Shown here piece by piece: positions 1 to 33,293 of a DNA stretch of 33,904 bases (within the stretch, counting starts at the first letter, position 1; every line of letters begins with the position of its first letter). Origin of the DNA: a virus; IMG/VR virus record IMGVR_UViG_3300020283_000013, positions 1-33,904 of that record. One strand, written 5' to 3'. Position numbers and translations under genes: made by a program. Below the pieces are notes generated by a model. The model saw only the letters and a program-made list of their open reading frames with translations, had not been told where the DNA came from and searched no databases.

Positions 1-356
1 TTTGCCACACTCGCTTTCGCTGTTGCGACATCCTTAAAACCAAGTCCATGAATAGTTCCTTTAGGATCTTCATCAGTGTATAAATCAGAATGTTTTTTTG
101 ACTTTGCAGGTTGCCCTTTTTTACGGGCAATACGAGGATTGGATTCCTCAGTCATTTTCTTCTTTTTACCCGCACAATGTGCTTTCTGACTAAAACCTTT
201 TGGGTTGTTACAATCAATAGACTTTTTATACTTTGCAGACCATCCTTCCTTTACAAGAAAACCATCCTCACGGACAGTATACCCTTCAGGAATAGGTTTA
301 CACTTCTTATCAGTGTTGCAATAGTATTGTCCCTTCTTACAGGAAGTCTTCGCCAT
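1..356 (-). CDS. Cys/Lys-rich hypothetical protein, 3' end cut by window edge
   Basis: This reading frame starts at the ATG at 354-356 and stays open to the window edge (118 codons visible), 8 bases after the gp16 stop. The N-terminal part has spaced cysteines (C6, C13, C19, C49, C61) with the stretches CNTDKKCKPIPEGY and SIDCNNPKGF...HCAG, followed by a Lys-rich linker (KKKK near residue 64). A second part begins around residue 92 (YTDEDPKGTIHGLGFKDVAT). The cysteine spacing could suit a small metal-binding or disulfide-stabilised module, but this is inference. From memory, similar Cys/Lys-rich small proteins recur in T4-like cyanophages; I cannot assign a function. T4 has gene 17 (large terminase) directly after 16, so this gene is an insertion between small terminase and whatever follows off the left edge. 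The frame on the opposite strand here is a shadow. Confidence 0.72.
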   Translation of the reverse strand, partial: MAKTSCKKGQYYCNTDKKCKPIPEGYTVREDGFLVKEGWSAKYKKSIDCNNPKGFSQKAHCAGKKKKMTEESNPRIARKKGQPAKSKKHSDLYTDEDPKGTIHGLGFKDVATAKASVA

Positions 357-364
357 TATACAGA

Positions 365-790
365 CTATTCAGAGCTATTATTATTTAGCAATCCGTCTTT
401 TAACATCTTTGAGAGTTCACTTGTAGAACCAACAAAGAGTGCGTTGTTTGTAACTGTGCCTTGTTTCTTTGGATTATCCTCTTCTATGTCTTTAACTTTT
501 TTATGTAAATCTGCTAACTTATCTGTTGTATCTGCAACACTTTTTATTAATTGTCCAGCAACCTCATATGCTCTTGGACTTGCTGTTTCCCCTGCAACTT
601 CCATAATACCATTGATCGCTTCTTGACCTTTCTCTATAAGTGAATATAAATTACCTCTTGTATAATCATAATCTTTTTTAACTTCATCAACCTTGGTTAC
701 TTCATTTTTTTCTTGTTTTACAATTGCATCCACCTCAACACTACCATCAGTGTTGAAAGTATCATTTAATGAATCGTAACCTTTTTTCAT
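365..790 (-). CDS. 16: Small terminase subunit (T4 gp16-like)
   Basis: The small terminase recognises phage DNA and regulates the gp17 packaging motor at the portal. The 141-aa product matches T4 gp16 (164 aa) over its core when compared by eye: the DYDYTRGN segment corresponds to DYGVVRRN in T4, SPRAYEVAGQLI to SPRHMEVFATLM, KLADLHKKVKDI to ILKLHKDMKDI, and NALFVGSTSELSKML to NATVFMGSPTDLMDEI. The central helical region (roughly residues 42-102) fits the coiled-coil oligomerisation core of the family, and both ends are polar and probably flexible. The start overlaps the upstream stop as ATGA, preceded by an AAGGGTG Shine-Dalgarno. Its place after gp13-gp14-gp15 repeats the T4 order 13-14-15-16. 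Large terminase is not in the window and is expected to the left. Confidence 0.88.
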   Translation of the reverse strand: MKKGYDSLNDTFNTDGSVEVDAIVKQEKNEVTKVDEVKKDYDYTRGNLYSLIEKGQEAINGIMEVAGETASPRAYEVAGQLIKSVADTTDKLADLHKKVKDIEEDNPKKQGTVTNNALFVGSTSELSKMLKDGLLNNNSSE

Positions 791-1368
791 TTTTTATCAC
801 CCTTCTTATATAATTTATTTAATCTGTCCTGTGCATCTTTTATTCTTTTATTTTTTGCAATTATGGTTTTCATTTTTCTAGTCACTATGGGTATTTTATA
901 ATAGTCTAAATCTGGGTCATTACGTTTTTTAGCTTTCATATATTGCATAAGATCACTCTCACCTTCAGGATTAAAATGTGTTTTTTCATATTCGGGAGTT
1001 TTAATACCTTTATTACTTACTCCTCTTGCACTTTTATGCTTTGGTAATCTAAAATTATCAGGATGTGGTTTTATACCAGTTCCTTTTGGTTTTCCAATCG
1101 AGGTTGCACCAGTTATACCCTTAATTGGTTCAGGAGTTGGTTTAATATATCCTTGCCTTACATTTCTTAAATATGCCTTTCTTCGTATAATATCACTTTT
1201 TGGAAATGGTCCTGTACTTACCGTTTTTAAAGCGTTAGGAATTTCTCTTGGTAGTTGATTTGCTTTTCTCAAACTATCTTTAAACAATGATTTTACAACT
1301 TTACTATTGAAAACAGCTTTAGCAATTTTTAATTTACCTTCAGATATAAATTCCTTGTAAGTTTTCAT
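787..1368 (-). CDS. Basic putative internal head protein with capsid-targeting leader
   Basis: The 193-aa protein is strongly basic: I count 48 Lys/Arg against 18 Asp/Glu. It begins MKTYKEFISEGK, nearly identical to the capsid-targeting leader of T4 internal proteins (MKTYQEFIAEA in IPIII). In T4 that leader directs proteins into the prohead and is then removed by protease gp21 after an [IL]-x-E motif. Here I-S-E|G (residues 8-11) fits the cleavage rule. The inference is that the protein is packed in the capsid with the DNA, and possibly injected. The rest has no domain I recognise: Pro/Gly/Lys-rich middle and Lys-rich C-terminus. T4 has no gene between 15 and 16. The start overlaps the gp15 stop by one base (TAATG), with an AGGGG ribosome binding site. 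Alternatively it is a head or neck protein that merely shares the leader. Confidence 0.75.
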   Translation of the reverse strand: MKTYKEFISEGKLKIAKAVFNSKVVKSLFKDSLRKANQLPREIPNALKTVSTGPFPKSDIIRRKAYLRNVRQGYIKPTPEPIKGITGATSIGKPKGTGIKPHPDNFRLPKHKSARGVSNKGIKTPEYEKTHFNPEGESDLMQYMKAKKRNDPDLDYYKIPIVTRKMKTIIAKNKRIKDAQDRLNKLYKKGDKK

Positions 1369-2219
1369 TATATATCTACCCCTCTATTTGGTGCAAACTC
1401 TTTTCCGTCACCAAAGAATGTGCTTGTTTCTGTAAATCCAAAATCATCACCTGGTTCAATAAATGGTGTATCATCAGTATCTATAACACCATCATCGTTA
1501 TAATCTTGTTTTGGTTTAGGTACAACAGTGTATCTCTGCTCTCTTTTTGCAGTTCTTGTATTTGTATCTGAGTAGTAATCCAACTGAACTTTTTTGATAA
1601 GTCCGTCTGGAGTTCTTGCAATGTGATTAAAGAAGAATGTTTTTGCTGTAAATGAAAGTGTATAAATTAGTGCTCTTCTTGTTGCAAAATCACCTTCATA
1701 ATCATCTTGTTGTGCGATGTTTTGAAGAACCATTGGAATATCTCTTTTTTCTCCGATTGATTTTACTAAGTCAATCGATATATTAAAACCTGGTTGAAAA
1801 AACGGTAGTATTTGCTCTAGTATTTGTAATCCATCATCTTGTAATTTTACTAAAATGTTTAAATCAAAACCAAGATTATATGGAACAGGCATGAATACCT
1901 TTTTCATTTTATCACCATCATCACTATCCAATGCCTTGAATGTTTGTGTAATACCTGCTTTTCTTGTAGAGTCATAGGAGATATTTGTAATCTCAAAAGA
2001 CATTCTTGGTAGTGTGATTTGAGTCGCTTTATTTAATTCTGCTTGCTGCGTAATTCTTGCTAAAAACTTTTGTCTTGGTCCATATGCAATTGGAACTTTA
2101 ATATCAGATATAACATTTCCAGCACCATCATCGTGACGAACATGAATATCATTAAACAGTGTGCCAAATGCAATAACTGTCTTTCTTATAATTTCGTGAT
2201 AAAAATAATTGCCTAACAT
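1368..2219 (-). CDS. 15: Tail sheath stabiliser / tail completion protein gp15
   Basis: gp15 forms the ring that caps the tail tube and sheath and joins the tail to the neck. The 283-aa product is close to T4 gp15 in length (272 aa) and aligns by eye. It starts MLGNYFYHEIIRK, versus MFGYFYNSSFRR in T4. LQILEQILPFFQPGFNISI (residues 131-149) matches FQIVEQILPYFQPHFNTTM. GEKRDIPMVLQNIA is followed by the conserved RRALIYTLSF, where T4 has RRRIEWSLTF. The C-terminal tail carries a 12-residue EF-hand-like loop (D239-D250, DYNDDGVIDTDD) that I do not see in T4 gp15. The gene overlaps both neighbours by one base (TAATG), so it is probably translationally coupled between gp14 and the internal-protein candidate. 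Confidence 0.9.
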   Translation of the reverse strand: MLGNYFYHEIIRKTVIAFGTLFNDIHVRHDDGAGNVISDIKVPIAYGPRQKFLARITQQAELNKATQITLPRMSFEITNISYDSTRKAGITQTFKALDSDDGDKMKKVFMPVPYNLGFDLNILVKLQDDGLQILEQILPFFQPGFNISIDLVKSIGEKRDIPMVLQNIAQQDDYEGDFATRRALIYTLSFTAKTFFFNHIARTPDGLIKKVQLDYYSDTNTRTAKREQRYTVVPKPKQDYNDDGVIDTDDTPFIEPGDDFGFTETSTFFGDGKEFAPNRGVDI

Positions 2220-6769: not shown

Positions 6770-9700
6770 GCTAATGCTATTGCCCTAAAGTCTCTTATTC
6801 TAACTGGTTTGCACTCATTAATTTGTGTCATAACAATTTTAATTGTAAAAGCACTAAACTGCTCTAAATTATCAACTGTAAATTGATATTCGTTAAATTC
6901 ATCAAATTTACTGTTTCTAACGAAAGCATCTGCTCTTCCATCGTTATTTGCCTCATCAATAACCACATCACCAAAACCATCACCATCTGTGTCTAGCATA
7001 TTTGCATAACCAGGGAATGCTCTATAAGTAGATGAAACCTCAGATGAATCAGGAGAGAAGAGTCGATAAAATACTCTGAAATCTGCTCCTTCTTCAATAC
7101 TTGCACCAACTAATACTTTAAGTGATGTTGCGGGTTGAGCTAATTCTATTACGTCAGTTACAAATGATGATGCGTGAGGATCATTACGTAATTGATTTGT
7201 GCGAGAGTCAGTTGCATAATTATTAAATCCTATTGGATTGTTAATCTTATTTCTAAGATATATTAATGTTAGATTTTTTAAATCTACGACAGGAGATAGA
7301 TTCACATCAGCAGATGTTAAATTCATATCAAGAATAACAGATTTCTGTTTAGGAAGTCCAGTTAGTTTATCCTCATTTACGGTAGATGCTACTAATCTTG
7401 TATTATCAAAATGAGTAAATTGATTTAAAGCAATAGGTTGAACTCCTTGATCTAAGAATGAAACTTCATTTCCTCCAGCACTAGTTCCACTTATTGTCCT
7501 AACTGATGCAGTAATATCAGTTGTTGTAGATGGTGTAAGGAAATTAACATCTGGTTCAATTGATGAGTATTGATGGTTTTGTGAAATTTTCACTGTATTA
7601 CCACCAAATGCTCTTTCATCTGTAAAACATAGTAATTGCTTATCAGTTCTTGATGTGATAGCTGCTGTGTCTACCTCTAGATAATAGAAATCAATATCAG
7701 ATTCACCCCTAATAGATGCATTAGCAGGAACTGTAATTACTGTATTAATACCAACAAGAGGCATTCCTGCTGCTTCATAAGTTTGAATGTTTGTACCTAC
7801 AGCGTGAGGGACTGCAATAGTATCACCTACACCTCTTACAAGAGAAAGTACATCTGTCCCAACAGTATATTGAACGATTTCATTTTCAATAAGTGCTTGT
7901 CCTGTAGTTGCTGTAATTCCAGCAAATTTTGAAAATGGTGCAGTGTTACCTATAGAAACTGAGGTACTTTCCGCAGTCATTGCTTCAGTAATCGGAACTA
8001 ACAATGTATCTGGTTTGACATCTTTGATTTCAACTTTATTGTTTGCTCCATGATGTGCGTGATTAATCTGTAGTACTTCAAGAACTTTACCTGAGAATAA
8101 TTCACCGTTTTGAACGGAATCACCATTGACTGCAACATTAGATATTACTGCCCTTGTATCATTATTAGTTCCATACTGTACTAGTGCTTCATTATTGGGG
8201 AATTTATCTCCCTGAACATCGGTGAGGAATAAAGTATCAAATGTCGTTGAAATATTTTTAACAGCAAATTTAAATCCAGCACCTCTAATGACTTGAGCGT
8301 TTGAATTATCGACAGTTAAAACATCACCAACCTGATAACCAGATCCTACACCATTAATAGCTACAGCAGTAACTGATTCATTGACTACTGTTAAATTAAC
8401 AGTGCATCCAGTTCCACTTCCAGTAAGAGGTACGGTTGGAACTGCAGTTACACTGCTAAACGAATACCCAACACCACCACTTATTAGATCACCAGCACCA
8501 ACTATAGATCCACCGTGACCTTCAATTATACCAGTTACACTGACATCCTCACTATCTGCTGCTGCACCTGTACTTACTTTTCTTCCTATTGGAAGATTAG
8601 CAACTGTTCTAGTACCAGAACCATCAATAGATACTCTTAACTTTCGAGGTAATGAACGAATTGGATTATGTACGAGTAACTGTGTATTGAAATTACCTGG
8701 TTCAATTGGACTATTATAGAATCTAACAGTACCACTATCAACAAATTTTGCTTTACGAAGTTTAAATGTTAAATCTTGGTTTTGGCTTGCAGTCCATATT
8801 GTACCGTTTTGTGATTTAAATAAACTACCACCAAGATACTGTTTAGATACAACAACATTCTGAACATCTGGTAAATTTGCAGATTTAACAGATTTCTCGC
8901 CCATTGTTGAACACCACATTGTGAACTTATCAGAAGATGGTGCTAAGAATACTAAAGCAAATTCTTCATCTGGTGGTAAAAATATTGGTGACTGGAATTT
9001 GAGTGTAGTTGGTACAGAAGCATCATCAGATACGTTAATATAATCTGGACTTACAACAATTTCAGCATAATCCTGAACTAGTCTTTCTGTAGGAGTACCT
9101 AATTCAACAAATCTTAACTGAACTGTTAATTTAGCACTTGGATCTTTAGATGCAAAGTAAACATCAAATGAAGTTAAGAACGCACCAGTTTCATTCACTC
9201 TGAATGACTGTGCTAAAGGATCTCTTCCTCCTCCTCTTCTTCCACCACCTCTTCTACCTCTTCTCCTTCTTCTTCTACCCCCTCTACGTGTTGCTACTGT
9301 TCTACTGGTAACTTCATTCCTTGTAGTAACAACTATTTCATTTTCCTTCTCTGGAGGACGAGGTGGATTCCTTACCTGTACGATATTATTTGTTTGTGTT
9401 AATACAGTTCCAGTTCCAAGGAATGTTCCAGTACAACTACTTGCTAAAGGAATATCTGATGGTAGTGGTATAGTTCCATCTGCTTGAGATGTTATTTTAA
9501 ATGTTTTTGTTCCAGAAGTGAATAATGTTGGTGGTTTTGGTGTTTGATTTGCATTTCTAAAGAAGAATGATCCAATAACATCTCCCCAATTATCAGAAAG
9601 TAAATTTACATTTGTTACTGATGCAACTGCACCACTTGTTTTTCCTGTTAATTTTGCACCTTTTACAACATATCCAAAATATTTTTCATTATGTGCTAAT

Positions 9701-12700
9701 CCGATACAATCAACATTGAATAATCTTGATGTTGCTGAATATGTTGATGATGGTGCAGGTCTTGATTGATCATATGGATCAATTATATATTTCTCTACAC
9801 TTACACTAGGTGAACCTAACGCTGCAGCAACCTCTGGTCTTGATAAATCACCAAACTTGTGATTTGGTTCCTGAGATCTTAATAAACCTATTTCTACTCC
9901 ATTAAGTTCTACTTTTACATCTTCAAAAACGGTAAAAGTACCAGATGTCATTTGTATTTCAAATAATTTAGGAATAACATCAGGAATTCCACTATCCAAG
10001 AAATGATAATGTCTTGTTAGAGGTTTTAATCCACTAGCAAAGTAAGTAACGTTTCTTGACCTCATAAATGGATCTACTGCACTTTCTACTTTAGTGCTTT
10101 CAATGAAATCTCTTTCCTCCTCATTTCCTTCAAGTACATTTGTAAAACTTCTCTCAACTGTGCGGGTAACTGGTGTTGTTGATCTAGTTGTTGTTCTTGT
10201 TTCATTACCAGTACGAGCTGTAGTTGTAGTTGTAGTTGTTCTACCTCTAACAGATACATCACGAACAATGTTTGATCTCTCTACCCAAGTATTTCCTGTG
10301 GATTCTTTTCTTTCATTATTAATGTAAATTGTTCTCGTCCAGTTGTCTGATGGAGGATCAAGTATGACTAGTCCATGAAAAGCAATAACATTGAATGGGT
10401 TTACATTTTCAGTTGTAGTTGCTTGTGGATTTTCGATCCAATCTACCTCTTCATATGCTAATGTAATTAAATCACCAGTTTTTTGACAATTTGGATCAGA
10501 AAGTTTTAAATTAGAATTTAAATCTGCAGTATTTACATCAATATTGGAATCTAAAGCTAATTCTGGATCCATAGACCAGTAATCTATAGCAGAGTATAAT
10601 TGTTCGTTAGTTACATCTACATCACATCTTGAACCAGTTTCAGGACTAAAATCTATGAAGTCTCTATTTCTAAAATTATAAGCAACAAAACCAGTTTTAA
10701 ATCTATTAAGACCATCTGCATCTCTTACTTGAAATGATGCTGTTTCCAATTCTAAAGCATTGAGAGATGAAATATTTTCAAGATTTTTTATTCTTTTTTC
10801 TAATGAAGCAATATCTCGCATTGTAAATCTGCGATTATCTTTCATTTTTATAAACGCATCTTGTATATCATATAAGTATGGTGGATAAATGATTTCAGCA
10901 ATCTCCATCGCATCAGTATTAACTGACGGTGTAACAGGATTTTCTGCAGACTCCCCCTCTATTACATCTACATTTTCTTCCTGACCTATGATAACTTTAT
11001 CAATTCTACCCACATAATAATCAAATCCCATTATTGAGCTTTCATTAGGAGTAATTACAAAGGGATTAGATGTTTCAAACGATCTACTTGTAAATGCAAA
11101 TGGTGAAACGTTTGTACTATTTCCAAAATCAGAAAGATTGAATGGTTTAACCCTTGGTCGATAATCTATAATATCTGATGCAGCAATTTGACCTGCTAAA
11201 ATAGGAATATCTTTCTTATATCTCTCTGCGGTGTATGAATTAACTGTAAACACATCACCAGATATACCACTTTGAAACTGATCGAATATTATCAATAACT
11301 TTTTAGAGGGTGCTCCTGCATTCGCATTTCTAATAATTTTAGAATAGTCGCAGTATTGTAATTTATGACCCTTATCTAAAGTATAATTAGTTGTTCTATC
11401 AATAAAATTACCAACAGTTACACCTTGTAGAATTGTTTCTATATTTGATTCCTCAAAGTTTATTAATTCACCTACTGTGAATTGATTTCCATTTAAGTAT
11501 ACAAAATCAACAGTATTTGCAGTTCTACTTACAATTTGACCTATCGCACGACTATCTTTACCAATAATTTTTTCACCAACTATAGAATCAGTATTTAATG
11601 CTAATCCTGAAACAAATGTCAGTTTATCTAAAACTGGAGTGTTTGTGTCTTTAGACTCATATATTGCTACTATATTTACAACATCAGGGACATTTAAAGA
11701 TATTTCTTCATCTTCAACTCTCATTCCATAATTAGATGTTGTTGTAAGTCCACTATTAATTGTGTTTACTCTCGATGTTCTAGTTACTTCAAGTGTTTGA
11801 CTTCTGACAAAATCTTTTGTTTTGCTTGTTGTTCCTAATTTTTTAAGTGTTACATTAACAACAGCAGCACCAGTTGCTTTAGATAGACCACTAAAGGTAA
11901 CAGTTTCCCCTCCATTAACAATACTAAACTGGTCATCAGTTAATTTTTCTGTTGTTCCATCTGGATAATGTATTGAATATCTTTCAGCGTCGAATGGTTC
12001 AAAAAATACACTTGTAATACCAACTGAAGTTGTTAATCCAACTGATGAATTAAATGAAATCGTATTATTAGTAATATTTGCTGCTCCACCAGTTATTTGT
12101 TTACTAATAATCAAATTAGAGTCTGCTAGATTTACGTTACTTACATTAGGTTTTGGTAACTCCCCAAAAATTCCTGATTTTTCAAGATTTAATACTCTTG
12201 GAACTTTTACGCTAAATGTGGATGTTGTTGTTTTATTTGTTGAAACTGTTCCACCAACATTAATACCTGCAACACTTGTTGTTGTTCCTAAAGTTAATGT
12301 TTTACCTTCAGTTGATATGTCAATAACTTCATTAAAAACAGGAACTGATGACTTACCATCACTGAATGAAATAATTGAACCTGTTTGTATACCAGCGTTT
12401 CCTGAAAAATTACCATTTACGACAGTAGCAGCAGTACCAACGACATTGATTGTGTCATTCAAAGAAAATCCAGTCAATTGACGATCATATAATACTGTAT
12501 CAGCACTAAAATCAGTCAATAATCCACTGTTAAGTGCATTTGCATCTTGGAATACTGATTTTATATCATCAATCGTATAAAAAACTATTTCTTTTATTGA
12601 TATTTTGTCATTAGACTCTACTTCATCAAGTATTATTTGTTCTCCTCTTATAAATCTACCCGTTGTCTGTGATACAGAAATTTCATTAGCACCTGATGTA

Positions 12701-31476: not shown

Positions 31477-31827
31477 CTATCTCGCATAATCTTTCATCAC
31501 ATAATCATTACTATCAAAATATTCAAGTACCCAATAAGCAACAGAACGAGGATTTTTTGCTCCACAAGTAAAAATATCGAACGCAACGCAGTTTTTTTCT
31601 GGCCAAGAGTGGCATGAGAGGTGACTTTCACCTAAAGTTACGGTGCAAGTCACTCCATAAGGTTCAAATTGATGTGTGTAGGTGTTTAAAACCTCTAAAC
31701 CTTCAGTTTTACAAGCACTAACGCATATTTTTTCGATTTTATCCCTATCATTTAGTTTTTCAAAGGGTACATTATACACTTCAACAAGTAAATGTGTACC
31801 CATATGGGCATTTTTTACCTGTTTCAT
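31477..31827 (-). CDS. speD: S-adenosylmethionine decarboxylase proenzyme, SpeD
   Basis: SpeD decarboxylates S-adenosylmethionine to supply aminopropyl groups for spermidine. The enzyme self-cleaves to make a pyruvoyl cofactor. The 116-aa product is of the short prokaryotic class 1b type. The cleavage motif ESHLSCHSWPE gives Glu67-Ser68 as the cut site, with His73 and Cys88 (FTCG) at the +5 and +20 spacing seen between Ser63, His68 and Cys83 of the Thermotoga enzyme. All key residues are present, so it should be able to process itself. Phage SpeD homologues are known from T4-like cyanophages. Some members of the wider family have changed substrate to arginine or ornithine, which cannot be excluded here. 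It overlaps the upstream gene by 4 bases (ATGA). A start at Met9 is also possible. Confidence 0.93.
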   Translation of the reverse strand: MKQVKNAHMGTHLLVEVYNVPFEKLNDRDKIEKICVSACKTEGLEVLNTYTHQFEPYGVTCTVTLGESHLSCHSWPEKNCVAFDIFTCGAKNPRSVAYWVLEYFDSNDYVMKDYAR

Positions 31828-32515: not shown

Positions 32516-32956
32516 TTAATTTTCGTTAAGTTCCCAATCTCTTTCATCGGGTCGATAATATGATGTAAGTTCTTCACCTTCTTGAATATCTCGTATCGCA
32601 AAGAACTCGTGTGTTTTTCGATCCCAAAATAAATTTGGAGTATGCGAATGATTTATATAATATTCAGTATACAGCATATTCAACGGAACGTCCAGTATGT
32701 ATGACTCAGTTTCTGGATTATACATACACATTCTTTCTACAAACTGCTCAATCTTAGTACCAACAAGTTTTTCAACCTTTTCCCAATGAATTTCATGATT
32801 TGGAAAATGATTCCAGTATTTTTTATCATAAAGAATTTCATCTTGTTTGATATCTCTCAAAGCAAAAACACCAACTCCTGCTCCCTCAATTAAACTTGGT
32901 TGTAAGCAGGTTTTGATGTCTTGTATCGATGAAATCATATCATCGTAACTATACAT
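32516..32956 (-). CDS. SET-domain protein, putative lysine methyltransferase
   Basis: SET-domain proteins transfer a methyl group from S-adenosylmethionine to lysine side chains. Counting from the Met at 32956, the 146-aa product has GAGVGVFAL (25-33), the S-adenosylmethionine-binding NHSHTPN (102-108, matching NHSxxPN), and the closing GEELTSYY (127-134, usually GEELTxDY, so Asp is Tyr here). There is no post-SET cysteine cluster, and the domain is close to the minimum size. I chose this start because GGGAG lies 10 bases upstream and it begins just after the 110-aa stop. The longer frame to 33049 would overlap that membrane gene by 89 bases. The target is unknown; host or phage ribosomal, DNA-binding or virion proteins are all possible. 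Confidence 0.82.
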   Translation of the reverse strand: MYSYDDMISSIQDIKTCLQPSLIEGAGVGVFALRDIKQDEILYDKKYWNHFPNHEIHWEKVEKLVGTKIEQFVERMCMYNPETESYILDVPLNMLYTEYYINHSHTPNLFWDRKTHEFFAIRDIQEGEELTSYYRPDERDWELNEN

Positions 32957-32960
32957 TACA

Positions 32961-33293
32961 TTACTGCTCCCACTTACCTTTTGTTTCCCATTCGATATAT
33001 TTCTTATTTCTCTCTTCCATATAATCCCAGAACCATTGGTTTGGGTCATCTGCGTAACTCACTTTTGGTTTTTTCTCTGTTTTTATATATTCAAGATTCT
33101 TCGATATCTCATCACGAATAATCCAATCGATATGTTTTGTGACCTGACCGAGTAACTGCTCCTCAAAAAGAGGACTCTTCATATATGCAAATACCAAGAG
33201 TCCACTTCCAAAAGTTATGTTTGAAATAATCAGAGCAGTGACAGCAATCCATCTTGTTCTAATTCGACTTGCTGTTCTCTCCAACTCATTCAT
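32961..33293 (-). CDS. Single-pass membrane protein (110 aa)
   Basis: The 110-aa protein has one clear hydrophobic segment, residues about 15-38 (WIAVTALIISNITFGSGLLV), preceded by basic residues (RTASRIRTR). By the positive-inside rule the short N-terminus is in the cytoplasm and the larger C-terminal domain (Lys/Glu/Trp-rich, DDPNQWFWDYMEERNKKYI) would be on the far side of the membrane. No lipobox or enzyme motif is seen. It overlaps the 48-aa gene as ATGA, with AGAGG at proper spacing, and ends just before the SET gene. A holin role is not excluded, but a single segment with a long tail is not diagnostic. Confidence 0.78.
   Translation of the reverse strand: MNELERTASRIRTRWIAVTALIISNITFGSGLLVFAYMKSPLFEEQLLGQVTKHIDWIIRDEISKNLEYIKTEKKPKVSYADDPNQWFWDYMEERNKKYIEWETKGKWEQ

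Follow-up and report, generated by a model that had tools for sequence, protein, structure and literature searches.

Gene X, encoded on the minus strand at positions 787-1368 of the window (the whole stretch of 33,904 bases analysed here), very likely specifies an internal head protein of the T4 type, which would be targeted to the head core, cut by gp21 after Glu10, packed with the DNA and probably injected. As part of the same reading, and with the same confidence, the gp15|gp16 junction is best explained as a site at which phages of this group acquire, lose and exchange cargo genes. In the mechanism that we propose, X would be expressed late alongside its neighbours, its first ten residues would act as a capsid targeting sequence (CTS) that docks it into the prohead scaffold core, and gp21 would cut after Ile8-Ser9-Glu10, giving a free 183-residue chain of pI 10.4. 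This mature chain would remain in the head, associate with the packaged DNA and probably be ejected with it. In T4, the internal protein IPI acts by blocking a restriction enzyme, and the phage requires IPIII on strain ECOR17 (PMC3012670, PMC9391042).

Gene X, its neighbours and its leader

The window corresponds exactly to the record IMGVR_UViG_3300020283_000013, a linear virus fragment. Its gp15 shows 75% identity to gp15 of Prochlorococcus phage P-SSM2, and its gp16 shows 63% identity to the proteins of P-SSM2 and of the marine virus AG-345-F15; the source is a T4-like phage close to P-SSM2 (Kyanoviridae). The fragment also carries speD, listed in PMC3037559 among the sporadic cyanobacterial-type genes of cyanophages. 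The host is likely a marine bacterium and, unlike that of T4, probably a cyanobacterium. No gp21 was found among the genes identified in the 33.9 kb fragment; gp21 is annotated in P-SSM2, the nearest named phage. The features referred to below are as follows.

787-1368, minus strand: gene X, candidate CTS-bearing basic internal head protein, 193 aa, ATG start, beginning MKTYKEFISEGKLK
1339-1368, minus strand: putative capsid targeting and cleavage leader of X, spanning residues 1-10 (MKTYKEFISE), with Glu10 as the last residue before the predicted cut; invariant across four aligned rows (three distinct sequences), assigned from the T4 leaders and the T4 rule
790-1338, minus strand: mature part of X, residues 11-193, pI 10.4, helices predicted at both ends and a low-confidence middle
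1368-2219, minus strand: gp15 tail sheath stabiliser, upstream of X (PF16724, E 3.4e-86)
365-790, minus strand: gp16 small terminase, downstream of X (phrog_445, E 1.9e-52)
3-356, minus strand: beginning of another possible cargo gene, which runs off the record; V-K-E|G before a basic domain (WSAKYKKSIDC)
31477-31827 and 32516-33049, minus strand: speD (S-adenosylmethionine decarboxylase, by PF02675) and a SET-domain protein, adjoining baseplate genes

The first-pass annotation had described an ORF starting MKTYKEFISEG between gp15 and gp16, with a basic mature part devoid of known domains, at a place where T4 has no gene. The ORF translation and the Pfam and PHROGs matches of the neighbours bear out the position and the start, the T4 genome indeed lacks a gene between 15 and 16, and X has no Pfam match at E 1. 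The protein contains 48 Lys/Arg (36 Lys, 12 Arg) and 18 Asp/Glu, with a pI of 10.3 and neither Cys nor Trp. Since gene X overlaps gp15 by one base (TAATG) and gp16 by four (ATGA), it is probably translated together with both.

The T4 leaders (NC_000866) read MKTYQEFIAEA in ipII and ipIII and MKTFKEFTSTT in ipI. Eight of the first ten residues of X equal those of ipII and ipIII, including positions 4, 7, 8 and 10, the differences being residues 5 and 9. For T4 IPIII, the first ten residues are reported to be enough for head entry; mutations indicate that targeting depends on residues 4 and 7 and processing on residues 8 and 10, while gp21 cleaves after L/I-X-E (PMC9026906). X keeps Tyr4, Phe7, Ile8 and Glu10, that is, the targeting and processing residues, in all three distinct sequences, and its leader ends in a putative gp21-type site, I8-S9-E10. 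Relatives of X on three IMG/VR contigs (100, 84 and 82% identity) keep all ten leader residues, while the residue that follows varies (Gly here, Lys in L002, Ser in L003), so that Glu10 is the conserved part and the Gly11 of the site proposed in the first-pass annotation (I-S-E|G) holds for the source phage only. By eye, fitting sites can be found near the starts of P-SSM2 gp21 (IISE|G) and gp23 (FLSE|A).

X shares with T4 IPI, IPII and IPIII a small size, a basic character and the L/I-x-E cut rule and, with those encoded by ipII and ipIII, the ten-residue CTS with Tyr4, Phe7, Ile8 and Glu10; at 193 aa it is also exactly as long as the ipIII product. In contrast, the mature parts are not recognisably related, and the T4 genes lie near e or 57B instead of between gp15 and gp16.

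The gp15|gp16 junction in relatives

We surveyed the best 80 of 294 IMG/VR gp15 relatives of the window, in 78 of which gp16 was visible. In 67 of the 78, gp15 and gp16 abut (gaps of -1 in 47, +2 in 14 and -4 in 6). The other 11 carry an insert of 146-210 aa, strongly basic, and all 11 inserts have a CTS-like start, nine with the strict motif and two with a variant. The strict motif (M..[FYL]..[FY][ILVM].E) had been fixed beforehand, and we scanned with it the 1117 ORFs of 60 aa or longer in the 527 kb of these loci. Ten ORFs matched. Nine were inside the gp15|gp16 slot; the remaining one (L223) begins some 420 bases past gp15, roughly one gp16 length, and by eye resembles the SAM-lyase cluster described below.

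The slot proteins form three families: X (3 loci), proteins starting MKTFK[QE]LQE (2, which fail the strict motif) and proteins starting MKS[YF][TA]QFIKE (6, three of them identical). Behind the leader, blastp detected no significant similarity among the three families, and the X profile reached only E 0.067 against L191 in a set of 11 sequences, a value short of significance. The 11 filled loci are related by descent, so the independent events number about three. Among more distant relatives, beyond the best 80, the slot of P-SSM2 and AG-345-F15 is occupied by a DUF6321 protein that has no CTS at its N-terminus, and AG-345-L05 has no such protein there. The P-SSM2 protein, PSSM2_123, thus shares the position of X but, unlike X, lacks the N-terminal CTS and has hydrophobic-x-E sites within the chain. 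The T4-type tag on X, together with other tagged proteins at the same spot in close relatives, makes it very probable that X is DNA-packed cargo.

The leader in IMG/VR and in virion proteomes

A search of IMG/VR for the pattern MKT[FY]KEF[IM], with the last codon given as ATN and Glu10 outside the pattern, matched at least 119 stretches. Against at least 119 matches for the leader pattern with Glu10, one scramble, built from the same codons minus the free codon preceding the last Glu, gave 0. The 119 listed loci yielded 126 leaders and 112 unique proteins, from which we took the 111 of at least 40 aa (one 20-aa ORF was left out) and clustered them by the part behind the leader. Among the matches listed, 59 cargo clusters carry the leader, and 42 of the 59 cluster representatives have Glu10 although the pattern did not include it. 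An [ILM]xE site near the leader is present in 53 of the 59 listed representatives, against a mean of 15.1 and a maximum of 26 in 500 shuffles; of the 17 representatives without Glu10, 11 carry an [ILM]xE further on and the other 6 lack one altogether. Net positive charge was found in 52 of the 59 representatives listed. Judged from these patterns, the leader resemblance of X is beyond chance.

X itself is among these loci (L097, the same contig as L003). Several leader genes occur in the Klebsiella T4-like phage Marfa (L111), so the tag is not confined to marine phages. A T4 core gene lies within the stretch (mean 8.8 kb) at 85 of the 119 listed loci, a raw count without a background rate. We scanned 26 leader-gene records chosen among the longer contigs of the 119 listed loci, and gp21 (PF03420) was present in 14 of them, including 9 of the 11 of at least 90 kb, and in 0 of 14 control genomes.

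Cyanophage virion proteomes provided an outside test of the leader. For S-CREM2, 52 virion proteins have been reported (PMC10665884). The motifs were written before the N-termini of its 219 ORFs were known to us, except that a SAM hydrolase was already known to align near the leader. The relaxed motif matched 7 of the 219 ORFs, 4 of them in the virion (p 0.057); with [ILM]xE added it matched 5, 4 in the virion (p 0.012), and the strict motif matched one, which is in the virion (p 0.24). The virion proteins with the leader are the SAM hydrolase, an APH-like kinase, a cytidylyltransferase and ORF13. In S-SCSM1, where by our own count 48 of 282 CDS are flagged as virion proteins in the record (45 as published, PMC9602691), the Glu10 form of the motif matched two annotated CDS, an NMNAT flagged as virion and ORF30 (106 aa), which is unflagged; one more match falls within a CDS. 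Taking both phages together, 5 of 7 leader proteins are in virions (p 0.006), with the qualification that the Glu10 form used here was fixed after the S-CREM2 result and that S-SCSM1 alone (1 of 2) is insignificant.

The leader-bearing virion proteins of the two phages share a CTS-like start with a hydrophobic residue at position 4, Phe7, Leu8 and Glu10; three of the four from S-CREM2 and the one from S-SCSM1 are annotated enzymes, whereas X has no known domain. The authors of both studies consider that such virion enzymes could be left over from purification (PMC10665884, PMC9602691). The cytidylyltransferase type also bears the leader in P-SSM2 (MKSFSQFLTE), where it is annotated as T4-GC190, a protein reported in S-SM1 virions (PMC3037559). 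Overall, the virion proteomes give modest backing to the leader as a packaging tag. The T4-type targeting and cleavage leader claimed by the first-pass annotation is accordingly supported strongly by the sequence and the T4 mutational data, and modestly by these two proteomes.

The S-CREM2 paper (PMC10665884) was searched for the terms targeting, propeptide, leader and cleavage, and none of them occurs in it. In ORF12 of S-CREM2 (7704-10313, L161), which encodes a Cas9-like virion protein, a stretch resembling a CTS (RFASFMAE|A) lies some 18 residues from the N-terminus, which may reflect a misannotated start or an internal tag.

The mature part of X and other candidate cargo

Four PHROGs match X weakly (E 0.08-0.25), all starting at residue 1, one of them being phrog_3499, "internal head protein" (E 0.12); for the mature part of X, this weak match is the extent of the similarity detected to the T4 internal proteins. 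The best match among PDB sequences was likewise weak (E 0.17). A scan of IMG/VR with the mature alignment returned the same three short contigs only, GTDB genomes contained no relatives, and tblastn found none in named phages at E 1. The description of X as a new internal head protein holds as far as class membership goes; relatives of its mature part are confined to three short contigs, one of them identical. The AlphaFold2 model, computed from four alignment rows, had a mean pLDDT of 59.5 and a pTM of 0.23, values too low to serve for a fold search. For the injected anti-host factor or DNA organiser suggested by the first-pass annotation, X thus offers neither a recognised domain nor a confident fold. 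IPI is an inhibitor of GmrSD; comparison of mature X with IPI gave no significant family match in Pfam or PHROGs, the model of X being poor (pLDDT 59.5).

The dN/dS of X is 0.33-0.51 (three pairs) against 0.06-0.12 for gp15, and X is thus under purifying selection, looser than that on gp15. Its dS is only 0.18-0.32, two- to several-fold below the 0.64-1.57 of gp13-gp16 in the same phages (gp16 from one pair only). The lower dS, in comparisons of the window with L002 and L003, suggests a more recent transfer of X among these phages, and compositional bias could contribute to it.

With 36 Lys and 12 Arg and a mature pI of 10.4, X could serve inside the head to condense the packaged DNA or, as a counter-ion, to neutralise its phosphates, and have no specific host target. 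The slot occupants other than X are likewise basic, and lysines of T4 internal proteins are described as touching DNA phosphates (PMC3012670); the dN/dS values and the conserved stretches of the mature part, seen in three distinct sequences, suggest more than bulk charge. We consider a role limited to charge possible, if somewhat doubtful, and condensation as such is compatible with X being an internal head protein. It is unlikely that X is instead a head-core assembly factor, comparable to T4 gp67, gp68 or IPIII in its assembly role, whose leader docks in the scaffold and which has no effect on the host. T4 IPIII does affect head assembly (PMC9026906) and X sits among tail, neck and terminase genes, but 67 of the 78 loci (best 80 of 294) have no gene in the slot and the other 11 hold three families that show no significant similarity, a distribution that does not fit a core assembly factor, though it would still suit a dispensable helper. 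That the likeness of the leader is coincidental and X serves the neck or the terminase as an accessory protein between gp15 and gp16, as its position and the gene overlaps would allow, is very improbable given the empty scramble control and the same survey, in which every filled slot carries a CTS-like protein from one of three families.

Beyond X, the largest leader cluster (33 of the 111 proteins listed) has a representative, L013:1441-2151, that matches S-AdoMet_lyase (PF23780, E 2.4e-17). PSSM2_114 of P-SSM2 (L005:14694-15203), with the leader MRTFQEFLQLCE, matches the same model at E 8.9e-8, and such SAM-lyase-like leader proteins in marine T4-like phages are candidate packaged anti-restriction enzymes. 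The Pfam scan covered 20 of the 59 cluster representatives.

We give about even odds to a broader reading, in which T4-like cyanophages practise modular effector delivery, with a short N-terminal tag and gp21-diced internal hydrophobic-x-E sites loading unrelated proteins and the gp15|gp16 junction acting as a cargo bay for gene exchange. The cargo would then comprise SAM lyases, ADP-ribosyltransferases, nucleotidyltransferases, lysins and small basic proteins like X. For T4 relatives, a possible use of the CTS to take in varied proteins is already on record (PMC9026906). In the full-text literature, within a scope that excludes most subscription journals, none of the matches listed connects the T4 CTS with cargo of cyanophages. 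A readable packaging tag would allow packaged enzymes (SAM hydrolase, kinase, NMNAT) to be separated from purification leftovers in a way that can be tested from sequence, and it singles out proteins of marine T4-like phages as candidates for injection.

The internal sites were examined by eye and without a control. Counting distinct sequences, hydrophobic-x-E precedes the domain in 5 of 5 WSxKYKKSID and 8 of 8 KDACY proteins, in 6 of 6 EKCW proteins (counting Phe), in 9 of 12 DUF6321-like proteins and in 3 of 7 LHKWF-like proteins (two clearly unrelated matches left out). Similar domains stand both behind the N-terminal leader (L024, L053, L055) and behind internal sites (window 3-356 and P-SSM2). 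These cyanophage polyproteins look as if diced by gp21, although this was read into them post hoc and the sequences are few and related.

Several further proteins were noted. Proteins composed of small basic domains, DUF6321 among them, in which hydrophobic-x-E often stands before the domain, are encoded at window 3-356 (minus strand), L005:20844-21659, L006:6843-7832, L007:6434-8467, L065, L090 and L123. The leader proteins L016:6037-6813, L046:3578-3997 and L115:10627-11037 match ART-PolyVal, DPBB and GNAT models. Finally, PSSM2_211 (L157:44737-46458), of 573 aa and without a Pfam match, starts MKSLSQFIIE and is a further candidate cargo protein.
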